DNA from: Allobosea sp.
GTDB taxonomy: Bacteria > Pseudomonadota > Alphaproteobacteria > Rhizobiales > Beijerinckiaceae
Assembly: GCF_017308075.1 (NCBI RefSeq)
Contig: NZ_JAFKFX010000030.1
Coordinates: forward strand, 248,001 to 312,000
Direction of reading: 5' to 3'
DNA: 64,000 nucleotides
Positions 3,827 to 5,225 of the stretch are shown here, piece after piece (the stretch's first letter is position 1; the number at the start of each line of letters is the position of its first letter). Made by a program: the position numbers and the translations under genes. The notes under the pieces were generated by a model that saw only the letters and a list, made by a program, of their open reading frames with translations, did no database searches and was not told the origin of the DNA.

Positions 3827-4357
3827 TCAGGCCAGGGCGCCGAGCCGCGCCTGCAGGTTCGCGAGCTGCCCGCGTACCGGATTGACGGCGGCGACCGGAG
3901 CGAAAGCCTCCGACATCTGGTTCTCGAGATGGCCGATCCGCTCCTGCAGCCGGATCGAATGGGCGATCAGCTCACGCAGGCGCAGGGGCAGGCGGGCCGC
4001 CTCGGCGCTGGTCGGCTGCAGCATCGGCTCGGCGATGCGGACCTTGTTCTTCTCGGCACGCGCCTGCTCCGCCGTCATTTCGCCCTCGGCCACGGCGCGC
4101 TGCACCAGCAGCCAGGAGGCGATCTGCATCAGCCGTGTGGTCAGGCGCATGCTTTCGGTCGCATAGACCAGCGAAACCTCGCGCGGCAGCGCCGCTGATT
4201 CCGAGCGCCCTTCGCCGTCGAGATAATTCGCGGTCAGCTCCACCAGGCCCATGCCTTCGCGAAAGAGCTGCATGAAGGCCTCCGACTTGACGAAGGTGCG
4301 CGCGAACGAGATCGCTCCATCCTCGACCGCCAGCCTCAGCGTCGGAAAATCGCTCAT
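3827..4357 (-). CDS. rcdA: DUF1465 protein, RcdA family protease adaptor
   Basis: 176 residues from MSDFPTLRLA. The start is set by a GGAGA ribosome site 7 bases upstream; the frame is open further up but is not conserved-looking. DUF1465 is the family of Caulobacter RcdA, which helps ClpXP degrade the cell-cycle regulator CtrA. Conserved-looking features are the N-terminal helix with FARTFVKSEAF, a central MRLTTRLMQIASWLL helix, and the LPLRLRELIAHSIRLQERIGHLE helix. The C-terminal tail is short. A perfect CtrA box lies about 300 bp upstream, beyond an intervening terminator. Symbol is by family; function in this organism is inferred. Confidence 0.82.
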   Translation of the reverse strand: MSDFPTLRLAVEDGAISFARTFVKSEAFMQLFREGMGLVELTANYLDGEGRSESAALPREVSLVYATESMRLTTRLMQIASWLLVQRAVAEGEMTAEQARAEKNKVRIAEPMLQPTSAEAARLPLRLRELIAHSIRLQERIGHLENQMSEAFAPVAAVNPVRGQLANLQARLGALA

Positions 4358-4533
4358 CGCACGTCTCCATTCGGCACAAGGGCGTGCGTGTGCGAGACGC
4401 AGCGCCGTTTCATGCCGGAAGCCCCGCAAAGATAAAGCCATAGCATTGTCGTTGCCGCGGCAAGGCTTCGTTAACCTTAATAATGGCAGGTTGACGGCGC
4501 CGATGCGGATCGCGCCGCGGACCTCCTCCGAAC
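4358..4533 (-). promoter_or_regulatory. Leader/promoter region of rcdA
   Basis: This non-coding stretch contains TTAACCTTAA at 4471-4480, two TTAA half-sites only two bases apart. That is not the TTAA-N7-TTAA spacing of a full CtrA box but could be half-sites. No clear -35/-10 pair was recognised. Confidence 0.35.
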
Positions 4534-4560
4534 CAAAAAAAGAGCCGCCCGAGGCGGCTC
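4534..4560 (-). terminator. Intrinsic terminator of the candidate sRNA
   Basis: A perfect 8-bp GC-rich stem (plus 4542-4549 with 4553-4560) and a three-base loop are followed on the minus strand by seven Ts (plus 4535-4541). No protein gene ends just upstream of it, which is the main reason to look for an RNA gene. Confidence 0.85.
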
Positions 4561-4631
4561 GAAGGTCAACAGGGAGGCGTCAAACAGAGTGGGCAGGAGC
4601 CACTCGACATCCAGACAAACTGGATGATCAG
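4534..4631 (-). ncRNA. Candidate ~97-nt small RNA with three hairpins
   Basis: Read on the minus strand, the region folds by eye into three perfect hairpins. The first is CATCCAG/CTGGATG (plus 4608-4614/4620-4626, 5-base loop). The second is GAGTGG/CCACTC (4587-4592/4600-4605) with loop CTCCTGC. A single-stranded linker carrying GCCTCCC follows, then terminator stem GAGCCGCC/GGCGGCTC (4542-4549/4553-4560) and seven Ts. The CU-rich loop and linker resemble anti-Shine-Dalgarno seed regions of rhizobial trans-acting sRNAs. A -10-like TAAATT (plus 4638-4643) puts the start near 4631. A 23-codon frame (4566-4637) overlaps, but has no ribosome site. Expression is not shown; the family is unassigned. 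Confidence 0.6.
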
Positions 4632-4637
4632 ATTCAT

Positions 4638-4665
4638 AATTTAGAATCGTTAAGAGCCCGTTAAC
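4638..4665 (-). promoter_or_regulatory. CtrA box and -10 upstream of candidate sRNA
   Basis: TTAAGAGCCCGTTAAC at 4650-4665 is an exact TTAA-N7-TTAA CtrA box, reading TTAAC on both strands. It overlaps where a -35 would sit for the -10-like TAAATT at 4638-4643 (minus strand), the arrangement known for CtrA-activated promoters. Three GANTC sites (4631, 4644, 4684), the CcrM methylation motif, fall within about 58 bp around it. Confidence 0.65.
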
Positions 4666-4689
4666 GCCGCGTCCGAGGGCATTGATTCC

Positions 4690-5024: not shown

Positions 5025-5225
5025 TCAATCCCGCTTCCGGAAAAAGGCGTCGGCCGCCGAGCGCGAAGCGGTCTTCTTGAGGCGCGCCTCGCCCAGCCTG
5101 GCGATCTCGGCCTCCAGCAGGGCCACCCGCTCATCGATCTCCGCCACGGAAAGCTGCGAAAGATCCTGCCCGATCTCATGGACGCGCTTGGGCGCCGGGC
5201 GATCGTCCTCGATAAATCCAGCCAT
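5025..5225 (-). CDS. DUF1192 family small protein
   Basis: 66 residues from MAGFIEDDRPAPKRVHEIGQ. The pattern DDRP.P...HEIGQDLS.LSV.EI.ERI..L..EI.RLE, with the phrase LSVAEIDERVALLEAEIARL forming a short coiled coil, matches the DUF1192 family, common and uncharacterised in Alphaproteobacteria. A purine-rich GCAAGGCGAGG stretch before ATG supplies the ribosome site. It is divergent from the quinone reductase gene; a fragment of the dispersed palindromic repeat (about 5265-5297) lies between them. Confidence 0.85.
   Translation of the reverse strand: MAGFIEDDRPAPKRVHEIGQDLSQLSVAEIDERVALLEAEIARLGEARLKKTASRSAADAFFRKRD

Follow-up and report, generated by a model that had tools for sequence, protein, structure and literature searches.

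The closest described relatives of the locus analysed here are alphaproteobacterial small RNAs (sRNAs). Those of the ar8 family (MmgR, SisA-D; RF00519, suhB-MmgR) are small trans-acting RNAs that share with it a terminator and a CCUCCCU motif. They carry a 10-mer, UUUCCUCCCU, downstream of a weak hairpin, and the anti-Shine-Dalgarno (anti-SD) sRNAs SisA-D, which act through an anti-SD motif, are the closest worked example of an anti-SD seed (PMC12559287, available portion). The ar14 sRNAs (NfeR1) likewise have three hairpins with anti-SD-like loops, and hold CCUCCUCCC in the unpaired parts of the three (PMC10746234, available portion). EcpR1 is an alphaproteobacterial sRNA tied to the cell cycle (PMC4414408 and PMC12403871, as far as the available text goes) and is encoded beside rpmG. 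CcnA of Caulobacter, a 182-nt RNA encoded at the replication origin that acts on the ctrA and gcrA mRNAs, is set apart by this description. The remaining relative is BjrC1505 (RF02356), a Bradyrhizobium sRNA; the BjrC names reportedly trace to Madhugiri et al. 2012. BjrC1505 itself was named only in a table in the literature searched, and a text search for its core letters returned nothing. A function for RF02356 was stated neither in the Rfam output nor in the available parts of that literature.

The DNA analysed is a 64,000-nt stretch of an Allobosea contig (the window). The original prediction had described an sRNA candidate on its minus strand that could not be assigned to a family. Searching the window with Rfam covariance models (cmscan) assigned it: minus-strand positions 4535-4671 match RF02356 over its full length (model 1-140 of 140) at 91.2 bits, against a gathering threshold of 50. 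This is the sole match over gathering in the whole window and the one RF02356 match in the genome. The sRNA is thus not an orphan, and has the hairpins, core and terminator of this family. The linkage to rcdA and the CtrA box are absent from the Rfam output, and the first ~45 columns of the model appear to be promoter DNA; as read from the sequence, gene order with rcdA, a CtrA-type box and promoter-like 5′ columns go beyond the Rfam entry.

The other families fit less well. RF00519 scores 27.3 bits at the locus (gathering 41), and ar8 loci are found separately in this genome. The window is without the ar8 10-mer and reads ACGCCUCCCU, and CCUCCUCCC is absent from 4535-4671 of the minus strand. 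Among the five Rfam matches within E 1 at the locus, none is ar14, AbcR or EcpR1, and unlike EcpR1 the sRNA lies beside rcdA. The suhB/ar8 matches over gathering in this genome are at C59:90692-90766 and C11:63037-63112 (69.4 and 67.0 bits).

Structure and covariation of the predicted RNA

The two perfect hairpins and the T-tailed terminator of the original prediction were confirmed letter by letter (Table 1), as was the claim that no protein gene ends at this terminator: on this strand, the DUF1192 gene upstream has its stop codon at 5025-5027, and rcdA, which comes next, starts at 4357. All three hairpins hold, but the linker can form a weak hairpin of its own (TTGACG / TGTTGA), which gives four stems including the terminator. 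The predicted product of ~97 nt is near our estimate of 91 nt, though not of the same length. The proposed -10-like TAAATT exists at 4643-4638, but the hexamer that is conserved in the alignment, TTATNA, sits at 4639-4634. As far as the sequence tells, a minus-strand sRNA gene with anti-SD-like loops and its own terminator was the right call. The broader interpretation was partly supported; the CtrA box, the rcdA neighbour and the order-wide conservation were missing from it.

Table 1. Features of the sRNA locus and its surroundings (window coordinates)
Feature	Position	Strand	Basis
DUF1192 gene, conserved upstream neighbour	5025..5225	-	Pfam PF06698, 82.7 bits
CtrA-type full box TTAACGGGCTCTTAA (TTAA-N7-TTAA), putative promoter element	4650..4664	-	conserved in relatives
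GANTC (CcrM-type methylation) site GATTC, left of the -10	4644..4648	-	both GANTC sites in 27/30 same-genus loci
-10-like hexamer TTATGA (conserved TTATNA)	4634..4639	-	column profile of the 146 loci in the main class of box-to-core distance
GANTC site GAATC, sharing bases with the 3′ end of the -10	4631..4635	-	inverted repeat with GATTC
Predicted sRNA, ~91 nt	4535..4625	-	start placed from the box at -39 (PMC4287350, available part) and from the -10
Hairpin 1, CATCCAG-TTTGT-CTGGATG, 7 bp	4626-4608	-	helix 1: 4/6 pairs changed on both sides, 96.6% of cells paired
Hairpin 2, GAGTGG-CTCCTGC-CCACTC, 6 bp, anti-SD-like loop CUCCUGC	4605-4587	-	helix 2: 99.5% of cells paired
Near-invariant core TTTGACGCCTCCCTGTT, putative seed; CCUCCC in the loop of the weak hairpin	4568..4584	-	invariant columns of alignment A1
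Linker segment GCCTCCC	4578-4572	-	sequence
Intrinsic terminator, 8-bp stem GAGCCGCC-TCG-GGCGGCTC (4560-4542), then seven T (4541-4535)	4535..4560	-	sequence and covariation
ATTAAGGTTAAC, TTAA-N2-TTAA pair in the terminator-rcdA gap, which may belong to the rcdA promoter	4470..4481	-	exact N2 pair in 21/158 distinct gaps
rcdA, adaptor for CtrA proteolysis, next same-strand gene downstream	3827..4357	-	NF051867 (NCBIfam equivalog), 198.6 bits, cut-off 170; Pfam DUF1465, 182.2 bits

The predicted 91-nt RNA folds at -33.9 kcal/mol, compared with -22.8 ± 2.9 for shuffled sequences, none of which folded as well (0/200; z -3.80). Conservation of the stems in related genomes, on which the original prediction had staked its claim, was found, with covariation. 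In alignment A1 (MAFFT, oriented loci; row L037 was kept though the trimming rule removed its terminator arm), 96.9% of cells pair in the named structure over 75 distinct sequences, whereas sliding the structure along gave 39.5-55.2%. Nine pairs and 64 cells were changed on both sides, against 4.0 and 18.5 in shuffles (reached in 0/500). Most of this covariation is in hairpin 1, where sequence varies and pairing is kept, and in the terminator. Hairpin 2 has one pair changed on both sides, and the weak third hairpin has none among the 75 sequences. RNAalifold alone drew neither hairpin 1 nor hairpin 3, and the named structure was counted instead. The T-run is preceded by GCCG in all 174 relatives with enough sequence, which is a lax test.

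Hairpin 2 and the core TTTGACGCCTCCCTG hardly vary, which fits what is expected of a pairing seed. The invariance of the core is partly due to selection, since the core was also used for orienting the loci; of the 180, the four without it (L030, L069, L091 and L097) were excluded. We rejected a small protein encoded within the RNA, as an ATG ORF occurs in only 36 of 167 loci and none is conserved.

The promoter region and the CtrA circuit

Of 160 distinct upstream regions, 157 carry the TTAA-N7-TTAA box when up to one mismatch is allowed (8.4% in shuffles; the exceptions are L076, L093 and L099), and 69 carry it exactly (0.7% in shuffles). It is present at this tolerance in 30/30 same-genus loci. 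Loci picked through Rfam are biased in this respect (91/94 with the box) because RF02356 includes the box columns; among loci chosen by the sequence of hairpin 2 and core alone, 75/75 have it. Spacings of 6, 10 and 9 reach 82, 77 and 69 of 160 at up to one mismatch, which we attribute to overlap among the A/T letters of that one box. Exact boxes number 0-4 at each of the nine other spacings tried, versus 69 at spacing 7, and this spacing is kept where the intervening letters vary.

CtrA, whose typical targets include flagellar and peptidoglycan-type genes, activates from a full motif at -39 and represses from one at -14 (PMC4287350, available part). The distance from the box start to the first TCC of hairpin 1, near the predicted transcription start, falls within 39-41 nt at 142 of the 161 loci where both could be located; this is the distance expected if the box starts at -39, so that a start near 4625 would fit activation. 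CtrA boxes can serve repression as well as activation, which we counted against the reading we favour.

Around the -10, the two GANTC sites form a CcrM-type inverted repeat, GATTC-N8-GAATC (4648-4631, minus strand), in 27/30 same-genus loci. The pair suggests a genus-specific methylation or GcrA input, or the site of another factor. GANTC as a general promoter feature was rejected: any GANTC occurs in 23 of 149 distinct promoters, against 13 in the upstream control, and is common in the window's genus.

The genome encodes both CtrA (NF045991, 426.1 bits, cut-off 350) and GcrA. An exact TTAAC-N6-TTAA occurs at 13 distinct places in its 5.55 Mb, including the sRNA box (17 rows over both strands; reversed-pattern control 3+3). 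Flagellar and peptidoglycan-type genes are typical among the targets of CtrA, and 6 of the 12 other places adjoin such genes: FliL with an FlgF/G-type gene, and a FliO-like gene (below its cut-off) with a rod protein 480 nt away, on the flagellar side; Ddl, a transglycosylase, a PBP fragment (below full-length cut-offs) and RlpA on the peptidoglycan side. At three further places the neighbouring genes encode a GGDEF/EAL-type protein, a protein of exopolysaccharide transport (below its cut-off) and an extensin-like protein, and at one more a HAMP-domain protein. The neighbour scan covered all places but L230; for L237 it took in one gene, which matched no family.

Gene order with rcdA and distribution

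The gene order DUF1192 - sRNA - rcdA is conserved. In 176 oriented loci, rcdA lies downstream on the same strand in 165, DUF1192 upstream on the same strand in 149, and a convergent rpmE in 123. Sampling of these loci was not random: they combine the 60 best-scoring matches, 40 chosen among the listed matches for spread and 80 that share the exact core pattern, and some genomes occur twice, such as those of L031 and L100. In the genus, the RNA sits between DUF1192 and rcdA at 30/30 loci. The 11 loci without rcdA downstream comprise five that are cut by the end of the DNA (L113, L124, L130, L168 and L177), five at which it was not found despite room (L009, L021, L066, L072 and L176), and L127. 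In this last, a Bradyrhizobium MAG, the sRNA is inverted relative to both DUF1192 and rcdA, by inversion or misassembly. Compared with the Bosea loci L128 and L173, the window has 69-70% identity at rcdA and 91-95% at the ribosomal protein L31; the Boseaceae locus L139 is closer still at rcdA (78%). Between terminator and rcdA, TTAA was found in 77 of 158 gaps and an N7 box with at most one mismatch in 34, compared with 2 and 0 of 169 in an rcdA-internal control. As this second gap has an N7 box in only 34 of 158 cases, the box of the sRNA is the conserved one.

In the family, 82 of 149 genomes gave an RF02356 match (72 above cut-off) and 67 gave none; in the order, 245 of 297 did (212 above cut-off) and 52 did not, under strict filters. 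We also built a model of the transcribed part only (R1), from 75 of 98 diverse sequences chosen out of 148 distinct ones. It matched 254/297 order genomes, with 43 lacking it under strict filters; among those listed are five genomes of 1.3-1.4 Mb from one family. Every same-genus genome has an R1 match (31/31), five of them with a second, weaker one. A sample of the class gave 37 genomes with R1 out of 240, three of the 37 from the window's own family, and the weak matches at this level may be ar8 relatives. The exact core pattern has at least 120 matches in named genomes; among the matches listed are Bradyrhizobium, Afipia, Tardiphaga, Bosea, Roseibium, Stappia, Chelatococcus and Pseudolabrys. 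Methylobacterium bullatum scores 50.5 bits with RF02356. Searching plasmid records for the sRNA by blastn gave no match.

Of 20 regions upstream of rcdA outside the order, chosen among the best-scoring rcdA matches, 8 matched R1, and the RNA lies within 1 kb upstream of an rcdA match in 12 of 25 genomes with both, many of these rcdA matches being under the RcdA cut-off. One genome of another order, G641, has three R1 matches (C10:25-128, C10:226-327 and C15:29-131), of which two form a tandem immediately before an rcdA-like match. Linkage is lost in two genomes of a single family: strong R1 matches (76 bits; G600 C1:3167035 and G474 C3:139061) lie ~42 kb from the rcdA-like match.

A divergent counterpart of the sRNA, under the Rfam threshold, precedes rcdA in Sinorhizobium meliloti. 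The DUF1192-rcdA gap of strain Ak57 (L255) combines an exact box with a hairpin, CTCCCTG and a terminator; it scores 27.2 bits with RF02356 (E 0.24) and 31.8 bits with R1 (E 3.8e-6), with a fold z of -4.09. The gaps of Sinorhizobium sp. K101 and Shinella resemble it. Neither RF02356 nor R1 matched a Sphingomonas plasmid or a Rhizobium leguminosarum plasmid with a partial rcdA-like match. The records of L255 (CP090106.1), L256 and L257 are labelled as plasmids (one as pSymB), but at 3.5-4.6 Mb and with rcdA, and in L255 also rpmE, they look like mislabelled chromosomes. A second exact TTAA-N7-TTAA box lies between terminator and rcdA in all three Sinorhizobium and Shinella records (L255 2405, L256 2339, L257 2349).

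According to the available part of Pini et al. (PMC4433202), CtrA is bound at rcdA in S. meliloti, yet the rcdA mRNA is unchanged on CtrA depletion. The real target of this binding could be the sRNA. Since the second exact box lies after the terminator, the CtrA peak is ambiguous between the boxes, which weakens the proposal that the sRNA alone explains it. In Hyphomonas neptunium, rcdA is not under CtrA regulation (PMC7200025, available part).

Possible function and competing explanations

We consider it probable that the locus is this genome's BjrC1505 gene, that it has a promoter and a terminator to itself, and that it is activated by CtrA and acts in trans on ribosome-binding sites. Phosphorylated CtrA would most likely bind the box at 4664-4650 and activate a start near 4625, yielding an RNA of ~91 nt that ends at 4535. 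Of the features of an Hfq-dependent trans-acting sRNA, a T-run tail and anti-SD-like loops were seen. The CUCCUGC loop, which is exposed, and the near-invariant GACGCCUCCCUGUU would base-pair with purine-rich ribosome-binding sites, probably with the help of Hfq, and so keep translation from initiating. Its control by CtrA and its linkage to rcdA, the product of which furthers CtrA destruction, would let the RNA switch a set of mRNAs during the part of the cell cycle in which CtrA is high.

Simple target scans of the genome gave no convincing target. Allowing up to three mismatches, AACAGGGAGGCGTCAAA found its own antisense match and 12 sites with three mismatches each (reversed-pattern control 3). 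A possible ORF start is close to three of the 12 (L247, L248 and L254; ORFs of 94-174 aa), which we judged unconvincing. The start regions of ctrA and rcdA are outside the best 5% of duplex energies set by 107 ORF starts of the window, with crudely placed starts; relative to the median of these, ctrA is slightly better and rcdA weaker. In the available literature on rcdA, CtrA, DUF1465 and small RNAs, this sRNA was nowhere joined to rcdA or CtrA, although subscription papers fell mostly outside this search and the link may be in print. The available part of an S. meliloti sRNA survey (PMC2873474) does not mention rcdA.

A rival reading takes the feature to be chiefly the 5′ leader of rcdA, with transcription from the CtrA box running on to rcdA and the hairpins and terminator attenuating it in cis. 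In its favour, 165 of 176 loci have the RNA before rcdA and co-oriented with it, published work has attributed upstream CtrA sites to rcdA (PMC2877005, PMC3616915), and rcdA has multiple starts in agrobacteria (PMC10469942; all three in the parts available). We regard this as unlikely. Minimum-energy and centroid folds of one sequence show a closed terminator with no competing antiterminator, the gap after the terminator carries TTAA elements of its own, and in Sinorhizobium and Shinella it holds the second exact box. The loops also seem more conserved than attenuation in cis would need. Some role of the RNA in cis on rcdA is possible. An sRNA of the ar8/ar14 ("cuckoo") type with a general anti-SD role, and with a CtrA box that means nothing for the cell cycle, would account for the shared CCUCCCU and terminator and for weak matches to suhB/mmgR (27.3 bits), SorX and SorY. 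These matches are all under gathering, whereas suhB loci at 69.4 and 67.0 bits exist elsewhere in the genome. Moreover, box and rcdA linkage are conserved order-wide, and 12 of the 25 genomes outside the order with both keep the RNA within 1 kb upstream of rcdA, so that we consider such an sRNA improbable here.

An alternative about extent takes the full 140-nt Rfam element as the RNA, with the 5′ 45 nt as a structured domain and the CtrA box as coincidence. Rfam does draw pairs in this part. Over 135 distinct 43-mers, 52.5% of cells form the pairs of the first 43 columns, slightly above column shuffles (50.1%; 0/300 as high), and 166 cells are changed on both sides against 143 in shuffles, a number reached in 12/300. 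The test was ungapped and anchored on the box, so the outermost pairs may be undercounted. In the covarying hairpins, however, pairing is 96.9%, and the window's own alignment to RF02356 has 14 non-standard marks (~7 of 14 pairs) in the 5′ part. Rfam's 5′ domain did not behave as RNA structure in this test, a result that concerns the model boundary and not membership of the family. With pairing this weak, the 5′ part has far more of the character of promoter DNA than the hairpins have, which favours the short product over 140 nt. Its conserved letters are those of TTAA-N7-TTAA and TTATNA, with spacing 7 constant while the letters between vary. The first ~45 columns of RF02356 are thus probably promoter DNA, and we think a structured 140-nt RNA very improbable.

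More broadly, and with nearly balanced prospects, we tentatively propose that BjrC1505 is an ancient CtrA-activated cell-cycle sRNA, retained next to rcdA across much of the order and in certain other alphaproteobacterial orders, and that part of the CtrA control credited to rcdA in this order is really that of the sRNA. CtrA sites upstream of rcdA in these bacteria should be read with caution, as they may belong to the sRNA, and RF02356 in its current form probably includes promoter DNA and misses the Rhizobiaceae counterparts. The conserved CtrA-type promoter and the linkage to rcdA offer a specific and cheap hypothesis for the function of the family. The CtrA circuit governs division and symbiotic differentiation and, if the hypothesis is true, BjrC1505 would be a missing RNA arm of this circuit.
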